DNA from: Myxococcales bacterium
GTDB lineage: Bacteria > Myxococcota > Myxococcia > Myxococcales > JAKAPL01
NCBI GenBank assembly: GCA_021783235.1
Contig: JAJXUD010000041.1
Location: 1 to 39,373, forward strand
Direction: 5' to 3'
DNA: 39,373 bases
Shown here: piece by piece, positions 15,975 through 26,540 of the stretch
Position numbering within the stretch: position 1 is the stretch's first letter
How the letters are laid out: each line of letters opens with the position of its first letter
Translations under genes and position numbers: made by a program
The notes under the pieces: model-generated
Databases searched by the model: none
Told to the model about the DNA's origin: nothing
What the model saw: the letters and a program-made list of their open reading frames with translations, nothing else

Positions 15975-16050
15975 GAGCCGCTAGCTCAGCCGGTAGAGCA
16001 ACGGCCTTTTAAGCCGTGGGTCGTGGGTTCGAGCCCCACGCGGCTCACCA
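15975..16050 (+). tRNA. tRNA-Lys (TTT)
   Basis: A complete cloverleaf is visible: acceptor GAGCCGC/GCGGCTC, anticodon loop CTTTTAA closed by ACGGC/GCCGT, and a T loop GTTCGAGCC. The 3' CCA is encoded. The anticodon is TTT. Its 3' third, from the T loop through CCA plus two bases, is the attachment core of the adjacent integrative element. The core is reproduced at 25368-25392, and the tRNA is left intact. Confidence 0.97.
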
Positions 16051-17264
16051 CGATCTGCCTTGTGCTGCAATGTTTTCATCGGAACTGTCACACCGACTGT
16101 CACACCCGGTCGCGTCTTTTCGCCCACTTGCGCGACCCGGGGCAGGCTCAGGACCCGGCCCGTCCGGCGCTCGATCCGCAGCTTTGTCACCTCGGCGCAG
16201 AGCGCCTCCCGGGGCATCTCCGTGTAGATGTCGAGGATGCTCTTGCTCTTGCCGTGGGTCACCATCTTGAGCAGATCCGGCCGCGCCCCGTCGGCCCGCG
16301 AGAGCGAGATCATCGTCCGCCGCAGGTCGTGGAAGCGCCGGTGCCGGAGGCCGAGGAGTTCCAGGTCGGCCTGGAGGCCGTCGTAGGCAATCCCGTGGCG
16401 AAGCATGGTGCAGTTCGGTGCGGGCACGACGAAGTCGTCCGAATGGGGCCTCCTCCCGAACGCCGCGCCCCAGCCGGACAGCCTCCACTCGGCGAGCATC
16501 GCCGCGAGAGTCGGGTGGACGGGAAGGTCCCGGGCGCCCCCGGTCTTGGTTCCCCTCCGCTCGTTCGAGTTTGCGATGACGAGCTGGCCGAGGGGCTGGG
16601 CGTCGGGGTCGTAGTGGCGCCACCGCAACGCCGCGATCTCGCCTTGGCGTAAACCGCCGATGCCGCCGAGGGCGTAGAGGACACGCCGCGCCTGGGGGAG
16701 CCGCTCGTCCGAGATCAACGACTCAAGCTCGTCCCGGGTGTAGATCGCCCGGGCGCGCCACTCGGGGTCCTTGTCTTCTTTGCGGCCGAGATGCGCCTGG
16801 GTCAAGACACAGGGGTTCGCTGGGAGGAGATCCTCCAAGACCGCCGCCGCGAACATCGAACGCACGATCTCGTAGACGTGGCGGACAGTCCGGGGCGCCA
16901 GCCGGCCGCCCTCGCGGAGCCCGCGCGCGAACTCGACCAGGTGGCGTGGCCGGACCTCGGCCAGGTGGAGCTGAGCGAGGGAGCTCGAGAGGACGTGGAG
17001 CCGGACGCGCGAGTCCTCCGAGCGGTACCCAGCCAGGTGCGTCCGAGTCTGCATGAACTTTTTGGCGAACTGGCCCACCGTCAACGGCTCGACGGAGGCC
17101 CCCCAGCGCCTCGCCGCCGCGACCTGGCTCTCGACCTTCTCGAGGAGCGCCCGGGCCTTCGGCTCTTGGCCGCGGTCGAAGCCCGAGGGGGCCCAGCGCC
17201 GCTTTCCGTCTGCATCCCGGAACGCGATCCAGAGCTTCCCTCCCCGACGGTAAATCGTGCCCAT
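15981..17264 (-). CDS. int: Tyrosine-type site-specific integrase
   Basis: This 427-residue integrase has an N-terminal arm-binding-like region (GTIYRRGGKLWIAFRDADGKRRW), a SAM-like core-binding domain (about residues 60-160) and a catalytic domain. The catalytic domain has R in GLRQGEIAALRW, H-x2-R in HDLRRTMISL, the later H in THGKSKS and Y in LDIYTEM. It would integrate and excise the element at tRNA-Lys. The reading frame crosses the attachment core and ends inside the tRNA antisense, so the last 23 residues (GEPRGARTHDPRLKRPLLYRLS and before) come from the core and host DNA. In the excised circle the same frame would run on for 88 residues after codon 404. The ATG directly abuts the stop of the upstream helix-turn-helix gene. 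Confidence 0.93.
   Translation of the reverse strand: MGTIYRRGGKLWIAFRDADGKRRWAPSGFDRGQEPKARALLEKVESQVAAARRWGASVEPLTVGQFAKKFMQTRTHLAGYRSEDSRVRLHVLSSSLAQLHLAEVRPRHLVEFARGLREGGRLAPRTVRHVYEIVRSMFAAAVLEDLLPANPCVLTQAHLGRKEDKDPEWRARAIYTRDELESLISDERLPQARRVLYALGGIGGLRQGEIAALRWRHYDPDAQPLGQLVIANSNERRGTKTGGARDLPVHPTLAAMLAEWRLSGWGAAFGRRPHSDDFVVPAPNCTMLRHGIAYDGLQADLELLGLRHRRFHDLRRTMISLSRADGARPDLLKMVTHGKSKSILDIYTEMPREALCAEVTKLRIERRTGRVLSLPRVAQVGEKTRPGVTVGVTVPMKTLQHKADRGEPRGARTHDPRLKRPLLYRLS
16028..16052 (+). repeat. attL: 25-bp attachment core in the tRNA-Lys 3' end
   Basis: This stretch, from the T loop to two bases beyond the CCA of tRNA-Lys, is identical to 25368-25392 over 25 bases. Outside these bases the sequences diverge. 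Tyrosine integrases of tRNA-targeting elements use exactly this part of a tRNA gene. Confidence 0.88.
16084..16106 (-). promoter_or_regulatory. Left arm-type integrase sites (two copies)
   Basis: The 11-mer GGTGTGACAGT (minus strand) occurs twice in tandem, at 16084-16094 and 16096-16106, 12 bases apart and about 30-50 bases inside attL. The same 11-mer recurs near the other end of the element at 25229-25239. Such repeats, placed on both sides of the core, are the pattern expected of integrase N-domain arm sites. They lie within the last codons of the integrase (GVTVGVTV). Confidence 0.6.
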
Positions 17265-17633
17265 CTATCGGCCCTCCGAGCGGCCAATCCGCCCTGCGAG
17301 AATGTCCCGCGCCCTCCCGTCCAAGTCCACCTGCTCGGCCGCCCTCTCGACGCCCACGGCCATCAGCGCCTCGAGCTCGTCGCGCCGGATCCGCCACTCG
17401 CGTCCGGCGCGATGGCCTCGCAGGCGGCCGGCGGTGATCCACGCGCGAACCGTCTCTGGGCGCACCCTCGCGAGATCTGCCGCCTCGGCGGTAGAGAGGT
17501 ACGCCGACGGCGGCGTGGTCACCTGCGCGGTAGCGGCCGGCAAGAGCTCGCGGAGGGCCGCGCGGATCTCCTCCCGGAGGACCTCGCGCAGGAGCTCGCG
17601 GAGCGAGAGGTCGATGGCCGAGCCGAGACTCAC
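17265..17633 (-). CDS. Excisionase-family helix-turn-helix protein
   Basis: This is a 122-residue protein. Its N-terminal helix (SLRELLREVLREEIRAALRELLPA) may dimerise. A MerR/Xis-type helix-turn-helix follows: YLSTAEAADLARVRPETVRAWITAGRLRG then HRAGREWRIRRDELEALM (about residues 45-92). Such proteins are read as recombination directionality factors or regulators. Its stop (TAG) directly precedes the integrase ATG, so the two are co-translated. It is the best candidate for the factor that turns the integrase towards excision. Confidence 0.82.
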   Translation of the reverse strand: MSLGSAIDLSLRELLREVLREEIRAALRELLPAATAQVTTPPSAYLSTAEAADLARVRPETVRAWITAGRLRGHRAGREWRIRRDELEALMAVGVERAAEQVDLDGRARDILAGRIGRSEGR

Positions 17634-17667
17634 CGGATGGACTCCTGGAAGGCCACCTCGGGCAGCC

Positions 17668-19923
17668 TCACGACTGGACTCCGCGGTTTCGCGGAGCGAC
17701 CCGCTCAGCTATCGCCCGGACGTCGACCACCCCCTCCCCGAGGGGCGATGAGGGCGATGGAGGCGATGTCCCAGCCTCAGCTGCCTGAGGGTCGACCCCA
17801 TCCTGTGCGCGTGGATGGGCCGCAGGATCGCCCCTATCGCCCCCATCGCCCCTGACTAGCCAGAGCTTGGCCCCCCCACGCTCCCCCGCGCGGACGAACC
17901 GTAGGCCCCCGAGCACTCGCTCACGGAACCGCCGGAGACCATAGCCGACGCTCTCGGCGGTCGCGGCCCCACCGCCGCGGGGAGGACACGCGGCGTCAAG
18001 GGCTGGGCGCAGAGCCGGGTGTGCCAGCGAGAGGGCCAGCGCCTCTGTGGCAGTCATCCCGATCGCAGGCTGAGCCTCGCGCCAGGCGCGAAGCAGCGCA
18101 CCGAGCCGCTCGGACTCCGACTCCCCCTCCACCAACCCCTCGCGCGTGTCCTCCGGGGCGGCAAGGTCGAGCCAGCGGATCGCGCCGCAGACGAGGGCCT
18201 GCCACTCCTCGAATGAGCCCCAGGGTCGCACCTTGCCAATCTGCGGGCGCCCGGCGACGTGGAAGGCGCGCAAGATCGTCAGGGCGGCGGCGACCAGGCG
18301 AGGGCGCTCCGCCTGGATCCAGGGGAGTAGCGGCGAGTGCCTGAAGCCCTGCCGCTCCTCCGGGCGCTCCTCGCCGGAGTCGATCCGGCAGTGGAGGACC
18401 CGCCGCCGTGTGTCGCCGAGCAGCTCGACGTTGTTGCCCGACGCCATGAAGATCGAGTCGAGGGGCACCGTTCTCTCCTCCGAGAGCCCGAGGATACGAT
18501 CGCGGATCACGCCGGCCGTCAGCGCCATGTCCAGCGAGGGCGTGCCGAATCCTCCTCGCACGTTGTCGAGGAGGACGAGCGAGTCACCGGCCAGCGCGAT
18601 CGCGAGCAGGCGCTTGCGCATCTCCGCGTCGTCCGTAGTGTTCGCCATCTTCGCGAGCTCGCGGCCGAGGCAGATCATGCCGATCGTGTCAGCGAGGAGA
18701 GTCTTCCCGGTGCCGGCGGCCGGTGCCTCGAAGAGAGTCATCGGGACCCGTCCCGAGATGGCCTGCCGAGCGAAGAACACGAGCACCGAGGCGAGCCAGG
18801 CCGAGCGGTGGGCCTCGGAGCCGAACGGGAAGTCGACCACGACGTCCAGCAGAGCGTCGCGCGCCGCGAGGGCATCCTGGCGCGAGGGCACCTCCGGGAT
18901 CGGGTGGATGGTTCCCGTCGGCTCGAGGATCAGCCCCGTCGTTCCGTCGTAGCCCGGCGTCGCGAGCACGGTCCCGTCGCCGCGCAGGATCGGCGACTCG
19001 ATCACGCCGGCCAGCGGCCGGATACTCGCCCACTGCCCCCGTGCGCGCAGGTCGGACACCACCCAGTCCGGCGGGCGGACCCGCTCGGGTGGCTTCGCGG
19101 CGTCGAGGGGCTGTCTGAGGTAGACCGCGCTGCGCGAGCAGGCCTCCCTGCATTCCGGATGGGAGAGCTCGGCGATGTGGGGGGCTCCGGGCGCTCGTCG
19201 CAGGAACCTCTCCGATGCGAGGTCGCGCCGCACGGTCACGAGGAGGCCCGCACGCTGGTAGACAGCGGGGTCGGTCCCCAGCGCCTGCTCGGCCTGGTCG
19301 GCTATCTCGGCCTCGTCCGCCCCGAGAATGATCTCCGGGCGCGGGGAGGTCGCGACCGTCTTCGCGGTCGCAACGGTCTCCGGTACTGGCAGGGGCCGGG
19401 GTCCGGCCCGCCTCGCCATGCTGTCCCGCGCGCCCGCGAGGATTCGATCGGCGAGCGCGCCCCCGACGAGGGCGCGCCCCCCTGGCGAGCCGATCCACTC
19501 CCGCAACTCCCATGACCTGCCGCAGGCCGAACAGTGGAGTTTGCCGGTCACGAAGTAGACGATGGCAGACGGTGCCGAGTCCTGATGGATCGGGCAGAGG
19601 ATCGCGACTCCGCGCTCCCTATAGTCCCGCGCGCTGGGCGACGCGGCGAGAGCCTCGAAGAGCTGCGCCATGGGCCCCGTCGACTTCGAGGATTCGGCCG
19701 CCTCGGCCGACGGGCCGGGATCAGCCGCGGGAGGCCCGTGGGGCTGGACCCTTTTCGCCGCGGTCGCGTCAGCGGGCGCGAGGGCGGCCCACTCCTCCGC
19801 CGAGCGCAACACTCCGTCATAGGTGATCACCTCCGCGCTGCGGGGCTGCTCCTCGCCTCGCGGGTGGCTATAGGGAAGCCAGAGCATCCGCCCGAGGTCG
19901 GTCAGCACCTGCTGGTCGATCAC
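17668..19923 (-). CDS. Element primase-helicase, zinc-finger and AAA+ part
   Basis: This large frame holds a CHC2-like zinc finger (C110, H113, C131, C134 counted from the GTG at 19923) and a middle region of unknown fold. A P-loop ATPase follows with Walker A PAAGTGKT near residues 401-408 and Walker B SLVLLDN near 448-454. It then has a possible sensor (FMASGNN) and a helical tail. It would open and prime DNA for replication of the element. The true N terminus lies in another frame. Dropping one base from the seven-C run at 19960-19966 joins it to the segment upstream, giving one protein of about 908 residues. The GTG at 19923 has no known domain border, so it is unlikely to be a natural start. 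Confidence 0.85.
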   Translation of the reverse strand: MIDQQVLTDLGRMLWLPYSHPRGEEQPRSAEVITYDGVLRSAEEWAALAPADATAAKRVQPHGPPAADPGPSAEAAESSKSTGPMAQLFEALAASPSARDYRERGVAILCPIHQDSAPSAIVYFVTGKLHCSACGRSWELREWIGSPGGRALVGGALADRILAGARDSMARRAGPRPLPVPETVATAKTVATSPRPEIILGADEAEIADQAEQALGTDPAVYQRAGLLVTVRRDLASERFLRRAPGAPHIAELSHPECREACSRSAVYLRQPLDAAKPPERVRPPDWVVSDLRARGQWASIRPLAGVIESPILRGDGTVLATPGYDGTTGLILEPTGTIHPIPEVPSRQDALAARDALLDVVVDFPFGSEAHRSAWLASVLVFFARQAISGRVPMTLFEAPAAGTGKTLLADTIGMICLGRELAKMANTTDDAEMRKRLLAIALAGDSLVLLDNVRGGFGTPSLDMALTAGVIRDRILGLSEERTVPLDSIFMASGNNVELLGDTRRRVLHCRIDSGEERPEERQGFRHSPLLPWIQAERPRLVAAALTILRAFHVAGRPQIGKVRPWGSFEEWQALVCGAIRWLDLAAPEDTREGLVEGESESERLGALLRAWREAQPAIGMTATEALALSLAHPALRPALDAACPPRGGGAATAESVGYGLRRFRERVLGGLRFVRAGERGGAKLWLVRGDGGDRGDPAAHPRAQDGVDPQAAEAGTSPPSPSSPLGEGVVDVRAIAERVAPRNRGVQS

Positions 19924-20395
19924 GAGGCCGGAGCGGATGACCGAGTGTCCTGCGCCGAGCCCCCCCGAGAATCGCTGCGTCGGAGAGCGCCTGCTCGACC
20001 ATGGCGCCCACGCTCCTCGCCGCTCGCTGGTAGAGGACCCCGTCGCTCGCCGCCACGTCGAACGGGATGATGAGCCGGTGCCCGCGTGGGGTCGCGTGTC
20101 CGATCGATCTGACCCCTAGCCCCCCGACCAGGGCCGCGAGCCTATCTCGGGTGTCGATGGGCGGGGCGGAGCGGCCTCCCTCGATCGAGTAGTAGTCGAG
20201 GTCGATCGCTACGCCGACCGATTGCTCCCAGCGCTCCGTGCGGCGGTAGTCGCCGGCCCAAAGATGGGGAGACCACCACACCTCGGGGCCGGCCGCGTCG
20301 CGCAGATCCGCAGCGCGCAGGAGATCGGCGATCGTCCCGACCTCCGAGCGCCTGCCCTGCGGCTCGCGGAGCCCGCTGCCCACAGTCACGAGCAT
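19868..20395 (-). CDS. Element primase, N-terminal catalytic part (frameshifted)
   Basis: From the ATG at 20395 the frame encodes a primase-polymerase-like fold. It has a DxD motif in VAIDLDYYS (D65 and D67) and a later ATPRGHRLIIPF segment (about 101-112) that fits the second catalytic motif of archaeo-eukaryotic-type primases. After AILGG near residue 145 the frame loses protein character (RRRTLGHPLRPRDRPAG). The other frame continues naturally as LGAGHSVIRSGLVIDQQVLTD. The break is exactly at seven C (seven G in the coding strand). Either it is a real inactivating indel, a sequencing error, or slippage that makes both short and long products. The ATG overlaps the upstream gene by 10 bases. 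Confidence 0.78.
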   Translation of the reverse strand: MLVTVGSGLREPQGRRSEVGTIADLLRAADLRDAAGPEVWWSPHLWAGDYRRTERWEQSVGVAIDLDYYSIEGGRSAPPIDTRDRLAALVGGLGVRSIGHATPRGHRLIIPFDVAASDGVLYQRAARSVGAMVEQALSDAAILGGARRRTLGHPLRPRDRPAGADRPRADALASL

Positions 20396-20649
20396 CGGCG
20401 GGCCCTCCAGGCAAGGTGCCTCCGGTAGCGGCGCGCCGCATCGTCCAGAGCCTCCAGCACCCCGTGACACGCGATGGCCGCCATCCGCACTCGGAGGCTC
20501 TCCACCGAGTCGCCGGTCCACTGCCGGTCGCCGAGGGCGTCATGCGCGAGGTCGCCGATGGGATCGTCGCGTCCAACCTGCTTCGCAAGCCAATCGCGGA
20601 ATGTCGGGGGTGTGCTACTCTCCGTCTCGGGGTCGTCGATCGTGCTCAT
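20386..20649 (-). CDS. Small YozE/SAM-like domain protein
   Basis: This 87-residue protein has the segment TFRDWLAKQVGRDDPIGDLAHDALGD, which resembles the YozE SAM-like family (a short helical fold often found in phages and mobile elements). A helical, Arg-rich tail follows. It overlaps the next gene (the primase) by 10 bases and the gene before it by 35, so it is part of the replication operon. The function is unknown, and a link to the primase is inferred only from position. Confidence 0.6.
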   Translation of the reverse strand: MSTIDDPETESSTPPTFRDWLAKQVGRDDPIGDLAHDALGDRQWTGDSVESLRVRMAAIACHGVLEALDDAARRYRRHLAWRARRCS

Positions 20650-20854
20650 CGTCGATCTCCATGGACGCCGCCCCTGGCCGGGCGGCGTCGCTGTCTGGGG
20701 GTGGCGGGAGCCGCAGCCGACGAGCTGCCCGCAGGATGCGCTCTCGAGAGAGACCGCGGATCGGCCGGCCGGCATACGCCGCCCGGATCGTCCTCGGGGC
20801 GGTCGCCGCCTCTGCTGCCAGCCGGTAGATCTCGCTGCCTCTCATGCCACTCAT
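20615..20854 (-). CDS. Small helix-turn-helix DNA-binding protein (LacI-like head)
   Basis: This is a 79-residue protein. Residues 6-47 (GSEIYRLAAEAATAPRTIR ... RPIRGLSRERILRAARRLRLP) have the spacing of a LacI-type DNA-binding head with its hinge helix, but no sugar-binding domain follows. It is the first gene of the primase operon, 45 bases from a divergent gene. It may control initiation of replication or the divergent promoters. The ATG at 20854 is chosen; a second ATG three codons on is possible. Confidence 0.6.
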   Translation of the reverse strand: MSGMRGSEIYRLAAEAATAPRTIRAAYAGRPIRGLSRERILRAARRLRLPPPPDSDAARPGAASMEIDDEHDRRPRDGE

Positions 20855-20899
20855 GGTGCATGATGTGGCCAGACGGATCTCCGTACAGATTGGCCCCCG

Positions 20900-21517
20900 G
20901 TGCCCCGTTCCCCTCGACCCCGCAAGACCCCTCTCCCTCGCCTCGCCATGATCGGGCGGCGGGACATTCCAGCCTGGGTCGACGACATCGCGCATCCGTC
21001 AGACCCGCCGCTTCACGAGTTCTTCACCCGCGCTCGCTACGAGTTCACGGTGTTCCGGCGCGAGAGCCCCTGGCGGGCGTTCCTCGATCGGCTCGCGGGG
21101 CGTGGGGAAGAGGCGTTTCGTGCTGGGCGACCTGGCGAGGCTTTAGTCATCCTGGATCTCGTCCCAGGGTTCCTGGAGCCGGATTGCGAGATGTTCCAGC
21201 CGTGGGCAGCGGCGCTGCTTGCCAGGCTGTTCAGTACCCGGAACTACGTCGCGCTTCGCGACCTTCAGCGGCGCGCCGGCAAGAGGGGCTCGGATCTCGA
21301 CGCTCAGCGTTCCGCGATCTTCGACAATTTACGCACGGGCGACCTCGGGTACCAGGACGCCCTTCGCGCCGTTGCCCAGGCCGAGCTTCACCGAGAGGGT
21401 GTCGAGCACCCCTCTGAGATTGCCATCACTTCGCGATCTCGCGCCGTTGAACAGTCACGGAAGCGCGACGGGGTTCGGCGCCCCTGGCGCACGGGGGCGC
21501 GGCGCGCGAAACGATGA
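20900..21517 (+). CDS. Hypothetical protein of the integrative element
   Basis: This 205-residue protein (GTG start at 20900, or an ATG at 20948 giving 189) is not recognised. It is mostly helical: PPLHEFFTRARYEFTVFRRESPWRAF, FRAGRPGEALVILDLVPGFLEPD and FQPWAAALLARLF. The tail is very basic (RKRDGVRRPWRTGARRAKR), which suggests nucleic acid binding. It is divergent from the replication operon and convergent with the repressor gene. It could be element-specific defence or regulation, but nothing in the sequence shows this. Confidence 0.55.
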   Translation: MPRSPRPRKTPLPRLAMIGRRDIPAWVDDIAHPSDPPLHEFFTRARYEFTVFRRESPWRAFLDRLAGRGEEAFRAGRPGEALVILDLVPGFLEPDCEMFQPWAAALLARLFSTRNYVALRDLQRRAGKRGSDLDAQRSAIFDNLRTGDLGYQDALRAVAQAELHREGVEHPSEIAITSRSRAVEQSRKRDGVRRPWRTGARRAKR

Positions 21518-21694
21518 AGTTCCGCGCCGGGGCTCCTCGGTCCTCACCGGCGCGGTGATCGAGCGGCATCCGGCAGGCCGGGGTTTTGCCCCGCCGGCCT
21601 CCCATTTTGAATGATCGAACCGATCCGGCTGCGCACGAGGCCGAGGATTGCCTCGGCGTGCTCGCGCAGTTCCCGCGCAGAGAAGCGCGCTTCT

Positions 21695-22075
21695 TTACTC
21701 CTCGCCGTTCGACCGTCCCTCGAGCGCCGCCGCAACTAGGTTCAAGAGCCGCAAGGTCTTGGGCCTCGCCCGGCGGAGCCGCCGTTCGAGGCGTCGCAGC
21801 TCGGGCGAGCTCTCGGTCTTCCTCTCTTGCCTCACGCCGCCGAGCGCCCGGGCGCCAGGAACAGCAAGCCCGAGAAGGACGTCGGCGCTCGCACCCAGCG
21901 ACGCCGCGAGGCTCCGCAACGTTGGGGTGCTCGGAAGCGTACCCCCGCGCTCGATCCGCCCGAGGAATTCGAGGGAGATCCCGGCCGCCTCCGCCGCGTC
22001 GAGTTGGCTCATGCCTCTCGACTTTCGGGCGGCACGTACACCCTCTCCGATGGTCTTCGCGAGCTTGGTGTCCAT
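21695..22075 (-). CDS. Cro/CI-type (XRE) transcriptional repressor
   Basis: This 126-residue protein has a classical N-terminal XRE helix-turn-helix (IGEGVRAARKSRGMSQLDAAEAAGISLEFLGRIERGG, about residues 9-46) and the dimer-forming helices TLRSLAASLGASADVLLGLA. A basic helical tail follows. It probably keeps the element quiescent. It is divergent from the lipoprotein gene. A palindrome in the shared region (CAATCAGATTG, 22111-22121) overlaps the -35 box of the opposite promoter and could be its operator. Between its 3' end and the gene at 20900-21517 are 177 bases with nothing recognised. Confidence 0.8.
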   Translation of the reverse strand: MDTKLAKTIGEGVRAARKSRGMSQLDAAEAAGISLEFLGRIERGGTLPSTPTLRSLAASLGASADVLLGLAVPGARALGGVRQERKTESSPELRRLERRLRRARPKTLRLLNLVAAALEGRSNGEE

Positions 22076-22110
22076 GGCCGCCCATTCCGGGCAGGCACTT
22101 CACCTATGCC

Positions 22111-22148
22111 CAATCAGATTGACTTCCCAGGAACGGACCGGGTATGCA
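22111..22148 (+). promoter_or_regulatory. Promoter of the lipoprotein gene with an overlapping operator
   Basis: TTGACT (22119-22124) and TATGCA (22143-22148) are 18 bases apart and point at the lipoprotein gene. The palindrome CAATC-A-GATTG at 22111-22121 overlaps the -35 box. This is where the divergent XRE repressor would be expected to bind. Confidence 0.5.
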
Positions 22149-22207
22149 GACGCCTACTGCACACTCAGGGCGGCTTCCGCTCGGTGGTGCGAACTGGGAG
22201 GCTCACA

Positions 22208-22774
22208 ATGGGAAGAACGCTCTGGCCGGCAATTCTCGCTTCGCTCGCTCTCGTCGCCTGCGGAGGCTCGGGGGGCTCCACGTCTGGAGGAAAGACCTCC
22301 AGCGGCTCGACGTCTGGCGGCTCTACCTCTGGAGGTTCGACCTCCGGCGGCTCGACGTCCGGGGGAACGACCGGCGCAAGCCAGCCCTGCACCGTTAGCG
22401 GAACGTGGGCGATTACCGATACCCGGACGAACGATTCGGGTGGTCTCTGCGATACGTCGTCGTTCGCGGGAGGGCCCGACACGATTCAGATCCAGGTCGA
22501 CTCTTCCGGCAACCTGAGCTGGACGGAAGGAGGCCAGGCGTTCAACGGCACGATCAACACCTCGACCTGCACCGCATTGGTGACGACGACCGTTACGGCG
22601 CAGGGAACGGATGCCAACGGAAATTCCTTCACGACGACCGTCACTCTTGACCGAAACGTCACGTTCTCGGGTAACTCGCTGACGGGACCGGCGACCGCAA
22701 ACATCTCCACGAACCCCCAACAGACTGGAACGCCTTGCACTGGCGACTACACGACCACGGGGAGCCGCCAGTAG
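22208..22774 (+). CDS. Lipoprotein cargo gene of the element
   Basis: This 188-residue protein begins MGRTLWPAILASLALVACGG, with the lipobox LVAC. Twelve or so Ser/Gly/Thr-rich units (GGSTSGGSTSGG) form a flexible tether. The globular part is rich in Thr and Asn (CTVSGTWAITDTRTND, NGTINTSTCTALVTTTVTAQ, VTLDRNVTFSGNSLTGPA). It resembles small beta-barrel surface lipoproteins with paired Cys. GGGAGG precedes the ATG by six bases. As a surface protein inside a mobile element it could alter the host envelope (lysogenic conversion or superinfection exclusion), but that is inference. Confidence 0.8.
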   Translation: MGRTLWPAILASLALVACGGSGGSTSGGKTSSGSTSGGSTSGGSTSGGSTSGGTTGASQPCTVSGTWAITDTRTNDSGGLCDTSSFAGGPDTIQIQVDSSGNLSWTEGGQAFNGTINTSTCTALVTTTVTAQGTDANGNSFTTTVTLDRNVTFSGNSLTGPATANISTNPQQTGTPCTGDYTTTGSRQ

Positions 22775-22788
22775 GTCACGCCGCCCGG

Positions 22789-23367
22789 CTACCGTCCGCA
22801 AGCCCGCTCTACTGTCCGGCGAGGCACCTTTAGCGCCTGAGCGATCGACCTCCAGGAGCGGCCCGCTTCCCTCATGCGGCGGGCCGCTCCAAGGTCGAAG
22901 TCTCGGCGCGGGCGGCCGATCGCCTTCCCGCTCCTCGTCCCCTTTTCCTTCGCACGCGCCAGGCCCGAGCGAACCCGCTCGCGAATGATTTCGCGCTCGA
23001 ACTCGGCGAGCGCCCCCAGGATCGAGACTTGAAGCCGGCCGGCGGGGGTCGAGAGATCGATCCCCTCGCGGAGGGTCACGACGGCGCAGCCGGCGGCCGA
23101 GAGCTCGTCCAGGAGCAGCAGGAGATCGCGAAGCGAGCGTCCGAGACGGTCGAGCGCGTAGGCCATCACCTCTCGGACCTCACCGGCGCGGACGGCCTTC
23201 CGCAGGTCGTCCAGCGCGGGGCGGTTCGCCTTTGCACCGGAGTGGCCGAGGTCGGTGAACTCGCGGACGTCCGCCCACCCGCGCGCCTCGGCAGCTCGGT
23301 GGAGCGCGTGGAGTTGTGCCTGGCCGTCCTGATCCGAGGTCGAGGTGCGGACGTAGAGCGCCCTCAC
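22789..23367 (-). CDS. Serine resolvase/invertase family recombinase
   Basis: This 192-residue small serine recombinase has the catalytic RTSTSDQDG segment (R7, S9), the arginine motif DRLGRSLRDLL (73-83), the E-helix region EFEREIIRERVRSGLARAKEKG and a C-terminal Hin-like helix-turn-helix (SWRSIAQALKVPRRTVERA). It may resolve multimers of the excised element or invert a segment. The GTG at 23367 gives the canonical N terminus. An ATG at 23502 would add 45 atypical residues and overlap the upstream gene. Confidence 0.88.
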   Translation of the reverse strand: MRALYVRTSTSDQDGQAQLHALHRAAEARGWADVREFTDLGHSGAKANRPALDDLRKAVRAGEVREVMAYALDRLGRSLRDLLLLLDELSAAGCAVVTLREGIDLSTPAGRLQVSILGALAEFEREIIRERVRSGLARAKEKGTRSGKAIGRPRRDFDLGAARRMREAGRSWRSIAQALKVPRRTVERACGR

Positions 23368-23476
23368 GCGCGCGCCCCCGAGCGGACGGTCGGCCGTCAC
23401 CTGCCACCCCGTGCGCCCGCACTCCACCGAGTCGAGGAACTCGCCAAAGCAGCCCCGGTCGTGGTCGGCATCCTGT

Positions 23477-23716
23477 TCACTTGGCCTCGCCCAGCCGGTC
23501 AAAATAGTCCAGCCGGTCGTAGCCCCGGGGCGTGAGGTCGTACCCTGAGCCGACCGGCTGGACGAGTCCGGCCCGCCGGCATCGCTCGATCTGCTTGCGG
23601 GTCTGCCCCAAGGACCAGCCCAGGCGCTCCGCGAGCACGACGAGGGAAAGCCCCTGGGAGGCTCCCCGCAGCTCCTGCAACATGAGAAATCGCGACGGGC
23701 TCACGACCACCTCCAT
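23477..23716 (-). CDS. Small winged-helix protein
   Basis: This 79-residue protein is predicted as a winged helix: SRFLMLQELRGASQGLSLVVLAERLGWSLGQTRKQIERCRRAGLVQPVGSGYDLTPRGYDRL. The recognition helix is followed by a beta-wing, as in MarR or ArsR-like folds. It has no extra ligand domain. It sits upstream of the resolvase in the same direction and is probably a regulator of the element. Confidence 0.6.
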   Translation of the reverse strand: MEVVVSPSRFLMLQELRGASQGLSLVVLAERLGWSLGQTRKQIERCRRAGLVQPVGSGYDLTPRGYDRLDYFDRLGEAK

Positions 23717-23779
23717 CGACTGCTAGGTGTCCACCTACGCAGGCGAGAGCGGGAACTCTCCTGCCACACGCTGGAAATT

Positions 23780-23811
23780 CCGCCCGTTTCCCCATTGGGA
23801 AAATGGGGCGG
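23780..23811 (-). terminator. Strong hairpin, possible terminator or attenuator
   Basis: CCGCCC (23780-23785) pairs with GGGCGG (23806-23811), and TTTCCC (23787-23792) pairs with GGGAAA (23797-23802) inside it. This is a two-part stem of twelve pairs. It lies 20 bases downstream of the 23832 gene on its coding strand. There is no U tract after it, so transcription termination is only one possibility. Confidence 0.45.
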
Positions 23812-23831
23812 TCGATTTTCTGCGCTGCCAC

Positions 23832-24293
23832 CTACCGCGCCCGGGTTTTCCGCGCGCCGTGGGCCGAGCCGTACCCCTGGTCGAGGGCCACGCGCATCGC
23901 CTTGCGGCTCTTCTCCCTGACGGCTCCGTGGGAGTGGGAGCTGACGCCAGCCAACCGGCCGCTGCGGGTGACGGCGCAGCCGAAGGTCGGCCGTACCACC
24001 TCGCCCGCCGTCCCGCCGGATTCCCCCCGGGCCTTCGCGCCCGAGAGTTCCGCCCGGGCGGGGGCGTCCGTCGGCTCCTCCTCGCCCCTCGACTGGATCG
24101 CCGTCAGGGCGAGGGAGATCCGCTTCGCTTGCTCCTTCGTCGGCCGCCGGTCGCACTCGACGGTGAGCTTGCGACCGTGCATCTGGACACGGCACATCAG
24201 CCTCTCGGGCTTGGACGTCTCGAGCCGCTGCGCGACCGCATCGATCGCCTCGGACTCGCTCTCCTGCTTCCTGATCTTCTTGCTCTTGGCCAC
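23832..24293 (-). CDS. Hypothetical protein of the integrative element
   Basis: This is a 153-residue unrecognised protein. The N-terminal half looks structured (SESEAIDAVAQRLETSKPERLMCRVQMHGRKLTVECDRRPTKEQAKRISLALTAIQ, alternating strand and helix). The C-terminal half is low-complexity and basic (SHSHGAVREKSRKAMRVALDQG). The GTG start has an AGGAGG five bases upstream. It lies in the line of small minus-strand genes on the right side of the element. Confidence 0.6.
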   Translation of the reverse strand: MAKSKKIRKQESESEAIDAVAQRLETSKPERLMCRVQMHGRKLTVECDRRPTKEQAKRISLALTAIQSRGEEEPTDAPARAELSGAKARGESGGTAGEVVRPTFGCAVTRSGRLAGVSSHSHGAVREKSRKAMRVALDQGYGSAHGARKTRAR

Positions 24294-24368
24294 GGTGGCC
24301 TCCTCGGGGTGGAGAGGGAAAAGAGGGGCGGCGGCTTGGCGGTGAGGGAGCCGCCGCCCCCCAAGCTG

Positions 24369-24860
24369 CTACTTCGCGCGCGGCCGGCGGGCCGCCGGTC
24401 GCTCGTCCTGCTCATCCTCGTCGGCGCCGTCGAGATCCTCGCCCTCGGGCTCCTCGGGCTCGATCTCCTCGCTCTCGAACTCGCGAACGGTGATCGTCTC
24501 GCGGATGAGCTGCTTCTTCGTCTCGGCCATGTCGTCACTCCTTTCGTCCTCCTGGAGTAACCGGCCCCGGATGTGCGTCCAGTCGGCCCCGTGACCGCGT
24601 GTCCTGCGAGACCGCCTCTTCCGCATGCGATCGGCCGCGCGGTTCCGCTCCTCGGGGGAGAGAAGCAGGCCCTCGGCCTTCGCGAGGTAGTCGACCGCCT
24701 CCGCGATGGTCACGCCGCACGCCTTCGCGTCGAACAGGAGGTCATCCTGCGCCTCCCGGGCTTCGAGCCGGGCGAGTTCGGCCTCGCGTTCCTTTCGGAT
24801 CGCGTCTGCTAGGTTCGCGAGGGCCCGCTCGGCGCACCCGGGAAGTCGCGGCCGAGTCAC
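24369..24860 (-). CDS. Hypothetical helical protein with an acidic tail
   Basis: The 163-residue frame starts with a GTG that overlaps the stop of the upstream gene (GTGA). The N-terminal two thirds are helical and charged (LADAIRKEREAELARLEAREAQDD, ERNRAADRMRKRRSRRTRG). The last 53 residues (MAETKKQLIRE...) are acidic with short Glu/Asp runs and a basic end. A strong internal start with AAAGGAG seven bases upstream exists at 24530, so a 53-residue product may also be made, or may be the only real gene. No family was recognised. Confidence 0.6.
   Translation of the reverse strand: MTRPRLPGCAERALANLADAIRKEREAELARLEAREAQDDLLFDAKACGVTIAEAVDYLAKAEGLLLSPEERNRAADRMRKRRSRRTRGHGADWTHIRGRLLQEDERSDDMAETKKQLIRETITVREFESEEIEPEEPEGEDLDGADEDEQDERPAARRPRAK
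24528..24544 (-). promoter_or_regulatory. Internal ribosome-binding site and start codon
   Basis: AAAGGAG at 24544-24538 followed after seven bases by ATG at 24530-24528 is the best ribosome-binding site in the region. It lies inside the longer open frame and in the same phase. It would give a separate 53-residue acidic protein. Confidence 0.55.
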
Positions 24861-25129
24861 CGGGGCAGTCCCAGGGTGCGGAGGTTGGCCTCGACCCTCT
24901 TTATCAGCGCCTGAAGGTCGGCGAGCGTGGCGGCGAGATCGGCGCGCGCGAGGGCCCGACGTTCCCGAACGGCAGCAGCGCGGCAGGGACTCCCGCAGTA
25001 GACCTGATCGCGCCGTCGCGGCCGAAGGGGCCCTTGGCAGCGGGCGCAGCTTCCCGGGCGAGCGAGCTGCCTTGAAGCGTGCGGCAAGGCAGCGGTTTGA
25101 TCTCCGGCGGCTTCGCTCGCGGGGGTCAC
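24857..25129 (-). CDS. Small zinc-ribbon, coiled-coil protein
   Basis: This 90-residue protein carries C-x2-C (SCARCQGPL) and C-x3-C (YCGSPCRAAA) separated by about 14 residues, a treble-clef or zinc-ribbon pattern. A helical coiled coil follows (LARADLAATLADLQALIKRVEANLRTLGL). Start and stop are coupled on both sides: its GTG overlaps the stop of the frame from the attachment site, and its stop overlaps the next GTG. It may be a small DNA-binding or recombination factor. Confidence 0.62.
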   Translation of the reverse strand: MTPASEAAGDQTAALPHASRQLARPGSCARCQGPLRPRRRDQVYCGSPCRAAAVRERRALARADLAATLADLQALIKRVEANLRTLGLPR

Positions 25130-25164
25130 GGCTCGCCCCCCGCCAGCTCGGCGGCGGCCCGCCG
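25119..25164 (+). repeat. Inverted repeat, left copy (46 bp)
   Basis: The 46 bases match the reverse complement of 25505-25550 with one mismatch. The left copy lies at the end of the coding segment beside the attachment site. The right copy lies beyond attR, in the toxin-antitoxin island. The distance between the arms is about 340 bases. Confidence 0.85.
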
Positions 25165-25236
25165 GATGGCCTCACGGGCGAGATCCACGCGCCCGGAGTC
25201 CAGGAAGCCGAGCGCCTCCTCGAGGGCGACTGTCAC
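25126..25236 (-). CDS. Short coding segment reaching the attachment site
   Basis: From the GTG at 25236 this gives 36 residues (VTVALEEALGFLDSGRVDLAREAIRRAAAELAGGEP), a clean amphipathic helical peptide. Its stop overlaps the next gene's GTG. The frame is open without a stop all the way upstream through the attachment core at 25368-25392. It is in phase with the integrase frame there, so it may be the C terminus of a longer integrase in the excised circle. As a stand-alone gene it has no clear ribosome-binding site. Confidence 0.45.
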   Translation of the reverse strand: MTVALEEALGFLDSGRVDLAREAIRRAAAELAGGEP

Positions 25237-25250
25237 ACCCCTGTGACAGT
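25229..25250. promoter_or_regulatory. Right arm-type integrase sites (palindrome)
   Basis: ACTGTCACA and TGTGACAGT form a perfect nine-base inverted repeat around CCCC. Its left half (25229-25239) is the same 11-mer as in the two tandem copies near attL, in the same orientation. The right half is an inverted near-copy with nine of eleven matches. It lies about 120 bases inside attR, a usual place for arm sites. Confidence 0.6.
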
Positions 25251-25367
25251 GAGGCTCCGCAAGGCCCTCGGAGACGCCGTTCGAGGAGTCGACCGATCGC
25301 TCGGATCCCGTTGGAATGTCTGGCGAACCGCTGCCAGGCTCCGCGAGACGCTGCTCAGGGAATCGGC

Positions 25368-25392
25368 TTCGAGCCCCACGCGGCTCACCACG
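25368..25392 (+). repeat. attR of the integrative element
   Basis: This is an exact 25-base copy of 16028-16052. It marks the right end of the element. The next 50 bases (25393-25442) are identical to the end of the host hydrolase gene, which implies that the chromosome originally continued there. Confidence 0.88.
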
Positions 25393-25442
25393 CGTCAGAG
25401 GCCTCGCGTGAAGGCGACGAGCGCTTCGAGGGTCTTCTCGGG
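25373..25442 (+). repeat. 70-bp direct repeat, copy 1
   Basis: It is identical to 26471-26540 over 70 bases: 20 bases of tRNA-derived attachment core and 50 bases of the host hydrolase 3' end. It flanks the left side of the toxin-antitoxin island. Confidence 0.93.
25395..25442 (-). pseudogene. Duplicated 3' end of the alpha/beta hydrolase gene
   Basis: On the minus strand this encodes EKTLEALVAFTRGL and the stop, identical to the last codons of the hydrolase at 26493. It is only the tail. The sequence upstream of it belongs to a different segment, so no functional gene remains here. Confidence 0.8.
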
Positions 25443-25504: not shown

Positions 25505-25550
25505 CGGCGGGCCGCCGCCGATCTGGCGGGGGGCGAGCCGTGACCCCCGC
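25505..25550 (-). repeat. Inverted repeat, right copy (46 bp)
   Basis: It is the reverse complement of 25119-25164 with one mismatch in 46. It lies just beyond the 3' end of the toxin gene, in a stretch (25443-25557) for which no gene was recognised. Confidence 0.85.
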
Positions 25551-26470: not shown

Positions 26471-26540
26471 GCCCCACGCGGCTCACCACGCGTCAGAGGC
26501 CTCGCGTGAAGGCGACGAGCGCTTCGAGGGTCTTCTCGGG
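26471..26540 (+). repeat. 70-bp direct repeat, copy 2
   Basis: It is identical to 25373-25442. It holds the tRNA-derived attachment core (20 bases) and the 3' end of the intact hydrolase gene, and so marks the original host junction. Confidence 0.93.

Follow-up and report, generated by a model that had tools for sequence, protein, structure and literature searches.

The window, by which the whole stretch of 39,373 nucleotides analysed here is meant, is contig C128 of a 4.58-Mb draft genome (97% complete, 133 contigs), and it carries a small element inserted at a tRNA gene. The integration target is a tRNA-Lys (TTT) gene on the plus strand (15975..16050; ARAGORN) that is intact in the integrated state. 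Two exact plus-strand copies of a 25-bp att core (TTCGAGCCCCACGCGGCTCACCACG) were identified, a proximal one at 16028..16052, which lies within both the tRNA 3' end and codons 405-413 of the integrase (int) frame, and a distal one at 25368..25392. The copies match at 25/25 positions, or 27/28 over 28 nt, and the core consists of the last 23 nt of tRNA-Lys and 2 further nt. The segment that they bound measures 9,340 bp (16028-25367) and has the composition of a tRNA-targeted genomic island, with an intact tRNA at one end, a displaced tRNA fragment at the other and an integrase between them. All recognised island genes are on the minus strand. Besides int, they include an excisionase-like HTH_17 gene directly before it (17265..17633; Pfam HTH_17, 1e-13; NCBIfam excise, 1e-12), a primase/polymerase-like replication gene (17668..19923; PHROG DNA polymerase/primase, 2e-31), a serine resolvase (22789..23502; Pfam Resolvase, 7e-44), and genes for an HTH_3 protein and a winged-HTH protein. 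No virion family was recognised among the scanned island proteins, several of the island ORFs being without assignment. A plus-strand island ORF contains a 15-bp tandem repeat (22268-22387) encoding a Gly/Ser/Thr-rich stretch, and its product resembles a secreted lipoprotein. A plasmid collection yielded neither DNA nor protein matches, no circular junction of the island was found in IMG/VR, and a search for the empty site via both flanking genes in two genomes of the same family returned no orthologous locus.

The integrase gene is situated at the tRNA end of the island. In the integrated state it is a tyrosine integrase frame of 427 codons on the minus strand (15981..17264; PHROG integrase, E = 7e-38) that terminates within the tRNA antisense. 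The first-pass annotation had proposed that this frame crosses the 25-bp core in phase, so that the C terminus changes upon excision, and its coordinates and codon counts (427, 404 and 492) were all reproduced on recomputation. When the two cores were joined in silico, the core came in phase after codon 404 and led into a stop-free continuation (25367..25126), giving a protein of 492 aa that ends in AAAELAGGEP, with the stop codon TGA at 25128-25126. This remainder of the circular-state gene (25126..25367, minus strand; about 80 codons plus the stop) would encode a linker and a predicted helical hairpin, as judged from homology and AlphaFold2 modelling. In the reconstruction, integration swaps about 80 C-terminal residues for about 15 from the tRNA antisense. 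The catalytic residues R206, K240, H312, R315, H337 and Y347, which are invariant in nine relatives, all precede the core, which starts 58 residues past Y347; integration thus leaves the catalytic domain complete and exchanges an accessory tail. An int gene spanning attP is confirmed for the window.

Putative arm-type repeats were found on both sides of the core. Two copies of GGTGTGACAGT (a motif also written GTGTGACAGT), 12 bp apart and coding for GVTVGVTV, are located on the minus strand at 16085..16107, at -54 and -42 from the core, and on the other arm an inverted (+117) and a direct (+128) copy fall within the tail codons (25228..25251, minus strand). Arm-type sites would be expected to be laid out in this way and, with one pair of repeats in linker codons and the other in tail codons, the whole attP appears to be coding. 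A second element of the same genome (G000:C6), an element of genome G096 and phage Mx8 have repeats of their own in a matching arrangement and at similar distances from the core; the second G034 element and G055 have only part of this arrangement.

Taken by itself, the window does not exceed chance expectation: from base composition, a frame open at least as far as the 79 codons observed past the core is expected with P = 0.27, and about 26% of comparable stops are overlapped by 4 nt by an ORF of 60 aa or more. Such figures would suit an open frame that is merely a by-product of GC-rich DNA, with the integrase ending near the core and the tail being a non-coding attP arm; the frequency of GTGA overlaps by chance, and a GC3 that is lower in the tail than in the int body of the window (0.76 vs 0.88), point the same way. 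The catalytic region was therefore searched for in 145 genomes of the order, 32 of which matched at E <= 1e-30. Most of the integrase copies examined adjoin a tRNA or tmRNA gene, and circles were rebuilt where the contig was long enough for the second core to be located. Eleven clean elements resulted (the window, G000:C6, G054, G042, two from G034, G022, G013, G096, G125 and G113), ranging from 8.7 to 53 kb and targeting tRNA-Lys, Glu, Asp, Val, SeC and tmRNA; G055:C217, with 38 in-frame codons past the core, was excluded from this set. A scan of the genome contigs with the window protein detected one close relative. In all eleven clean elements, the window included, the int frame remains open for 73-117 codons beyond the core, as against a median of 15 codons for the two alternative frames (Mann-Whitney p = 7e-5), and the chance that all eleven would be open for at least 73 codons from composition alone is 2e-6. 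These p-values are indicative, as the elements are related, and the branches between them are long in the tree. The conserved tRNA T-loop is read in different frames by different elements, which means that the open frame is not imposed by the tRNA sequence. Once relatives are included, the extension of int across attP is clearly non-random. Stops between core and tail in related elements had been named in the first-pass annotation as an observation that would speak against its proposal, and none of the eleven has one.

The tail itself appears to be a real protein segment. Those of the window and of its paralogue at tRNA-Glu (G000:C6) have 33/69 residues in common (z ~16) despite the different target tRNAs. 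The window tail further gave a match to the tail of the viral contig L131 (z = 8.7) and a weaker one to that of L117 (z = 4.6). The tails of G054, G042 and Mx8 match mutually, as do those of G125 and G113; beyond such close pairs, most tails have diverged too far to resemble that of the window significantly in pairwise comparison. Tail pN/pS is 0.64-0.84, compared with about 0.5 for most catalytic bodies, which indicates a constraint that is relaxed, yet still that of coding sequence. AlphaFold2 predicted a disordered linker followed by two helices at tail residues 42-76 (pLDDT ~95), and this hairpin, located beyond the distal arm repeats, is the best-conserved part of the tail. Comparison with the attP of related free elements provides natural rather than reconstructed evidence for the long form: the IMG/VR contigs L120, L127, L128 and L131 and phage Mx8 possess an uninterrupted int with a T-loop fragment inside it and without a complete tRNA. 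In other IMG/VR contigs, int ends in tRNA or tmRNA antisense peptides, as it does in integrated copies. No viral contig matched when the window integrase was the sole query; those contigs were found with the family alignment. The proposal that the two states encode different C termini is thus borne out, with relatives and free viral genomes keeping the arrangement. Given homologous tails behind open frames in 11/11 clean elements, uninterrupted genes in free viral genomes and conservation of the hairpin, a compositional by-product is highly improbable. Very probably, the window contains a 9.34-kb tRNA-Lys island with an Mx8-type integrase gene that holds its own attP, has a long tail in the circle and is cut by integration.

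A second integrase subfamily, similar to that of phage Mx9, was identified at E <= 1e-40 in 59 of the 145 genomes, among them the source genome of the window (contig C71; G000:C71:51394-64368, loci L167-L169; further elements at L189-L224). Integrases of this abundant subfamily are 27% identical to that of the window. Integrases of other subfamilies in the same genomes had been intended as a negative control for entry into the tRNA, a use that was dropped because 4/9 of those beside a tRNA do enter it; as long tails were reconstructed in these intended controls too, they extend the finding. In 11 of 12 reconstructed second-subfamily elements, the circular form adds 84-148 codons that reach a C-terminal HTH_17 domain, which is frameshifted in one of the eleven (G079); in the twelfth (G048), int stops ahead of the tRNA. 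The domain was identified by Pfam in the C71 tail (E = 5e-11) and by motif in the remaining tails. The integrase of the free phage Mx9 has HTH_17 at residues 489-537 (E = 3.5e-11), and therefore an Int-HTH_17 fusion does occur naturally. The presence of a DNA-binding domain in the circular form alone suggests that these tails may act at attP or at control sites nearby. In addition, an integrase outside the Mx8-type matches (G013:C1:3806374-3806925, minus strand; loci L173-L175), associated with a 17.1-kb element at tRNA-Leu, has 108 open codons past the core with a similar hairpin-like tail at the end (AAWDALEAARVALAAGDRRRARRLLLEALGAL), which suggests that subfamilies have the tail module in common.

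Two other accounts of the open frame have to be considered alongside these tails. The frame might be open because the gene has to overlap the arm-type sites of attP for compactness, the tail peptide being tolerated rather than functional. Arm sites in frame at both sides of the core and the relaxed constraint on the tail would agree with this, but the hairpin, which is the best conserved, is situated past the distal arm sites, and the second subfamily has a recognisable HTH_17 domain at the analogous position, so that compactness as the whole explanation seems unlikely. It is less plausible still that the tail serves mainly as a separate small protein in the integrated state, started from the in-frame GTG at 25236 before the hairpin, with fusion to the integrase being secondary. 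In several second-subfamily tails, a Met occurs just ahead of the HTH domain, which would fit this reading; however, the C71 tail has no in-frame ATG, GTG or TTG ahead of its domain, and a stand-alone peptide would not need a frame open back to int in every element.

For the genes behind the integrase, the first-pass annotation had described two successive overlaps, and both were confirmed at 4 nt. The GTG (25129-25127) of a zinc-ribbon-like ORF with weak PHROG matches (24857..25129, minus strand) overlaps the stop codon of circular-state int, and the TGA of this ORF (24859-24857) is overlapped by the GTG (24860-24858) of the next ORF (24369..24860, minus strand). As a matter of anatomy, the circle does place the right-end genes directly after int, as had been claimed, and overlaps of this kind are enriched in relatives and free phages: an ORF starts at -8 to 0 from the int stop in 13/19 elements or free phages, against 32% expected (p = 0.0014), and at exactly -4 in 9/19 (p = 0.036). 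The overlaps support co-translation of int with the following gene in the circle. The main function of the arrangement could be that of a two-state operon switch, in which integration would cut the right-end genes off from the int promoter; their position directly behind int in the circle, the enrichment of overlaps and the 4-nt overlap of Mx9 int with its next gene would all be in keeping with it. However, the gene after int differs among elements and, when the island is integrated, the right-end genes are downstream of minus-strand flanking genes that could read into them, so silencing upon integration is not assured. A scan for sigma-70 promoters found nothing. As a main function, the switch is rather doubtful; operon coupling between int and the right-end genes is plausible but unproven, and the least certain proposition, hypothetical in kind, is that these genes might be transcribed from int solely in the circle.

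Among phages, the nearest relative of the window integrase is that of Mx8 (42% identity over 90% of the query, E = 1e-67), and the two were placed in a shared tree. According to reviews, attP of Mx8 lies within int, integration swaps 112 C-terminal residues for 13, and the integrase altered by integration is less active (PMC6070905, PMC4701971, covering Tojo 1996 and Magrini 1999); the Mx8 record likewise has 112 residues past the core. The window element has the features of the Mx8 type, namely a homologous catalytic region, a core in a tRNA gene and in frame, attP in int with arm repeats inside the frame, a long C-terminal tail traded for a short one by integration, and, where Mx8 has uoi, an excisionase-like HTH gene immediately before int. 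The window integrase is therefore of the Mx8 kind and the principle is already known. Unlike Mx8, however, the window element is a 9.3-kb island with no recognised virion genes and with tRNA-Lys rather than tRNA-Asp as target, its tail is shorter (about 80 vs 112 residues) and of other sequence, and its next gene overlaps the int stop, whereas that of Mx8 begins 47 nt downstream. What is new is that such an integrase occurs on a small island, that the tail recurs and that the arrangement extends so widely across the order. The Mx9 integrase (AY247757) is likewise long and has an accessory module at its C terminus, and the gene that follows overlaps its stop codon by 4 nt; it belongs to the other subfamily, however, and has the HTH_17 DNA-binding domain as its module. 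In SSV-type archaeal integrases, the att site is also within int and integration alters the gene, but the outcome is a split gene whose catalytic domain is severed from the rest and whose pieces are inactive (PMC8371274), while the catalytic domain of the window integrase stays intact; a 2021 review regarded gene-disrupting recombinases as exclusive to archaea (PMC8371274). State-dependent products are also found in rumA-integrated streptococcal ICEs, which have a serine integrase and an att site within an element gene (PMC4701971), and in mycobacteriophage BPs, where integration-dependent immunity results from att in the repressor gene (PMC4557955), the repressor rather than the integrase being affected.

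The direction of recombination in phages and islands is normally ascribed to a separate excisionase, and the attP-spanning integrase has so far been seen as peculiar to Mx8 and a few other elements. In the mechanism that we propose, int of the excised circle would be one gene of 492 codons, running from the catalytic domain through a linker with arm sites and core to the helical hairpin. Integration would cut it at the core, with the catalytic domain remaining whole and the hairpin and the right-end genes ending up at the opposite end of the island. By analogy with Mx8, the 492-aa integrase would act on attP x attB, and the 427-aa form, being less active, would carry out excision jointly with the HTH_17 protein. 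More broadly, the chances appear about even that two subfamilies in this order keep a far-arm module, hairpin or HTH_17, joined to the integrase only in the circle, so that DNA topology sets the form of the integrase (integration-proficient in the circle) and ties neighbouring genes to the circle. An integrase that loses a C-terminal module by integration would represent a second, DNA-encoded signal of the state of the element. The arrangement looks standard for small tRNA islands and prophages across the whole bacterial order, and the integrated integrases annotated in its genomes would represent the truncated state.

Two repeats were additionally observed at the right flank of the island. 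The first is a 46-bp inverted repeat, 98% complementary (25119-25164 and 25505-25550), in which the junction between the end of the int tail and the zinc-ribbon start is copied in inverted orientation just outside the distal core; it may be either a remnant or an artefact of the assembly. The second is an exact 70-bp direct repeat (25373-25442 and 26471-26540) that comprises 20 bp of the att core and flanking sequence that includes the final codons of a hydrolase gene. As the 1.1 kb between its copies encodes a GNAT/TacA-like toxin-antitoxin pair, the right flank may be a second cassette or an assembly feature. The third, partial att site present in the outer copy (26471-26490) would fuse int in frame to the antitoxin.
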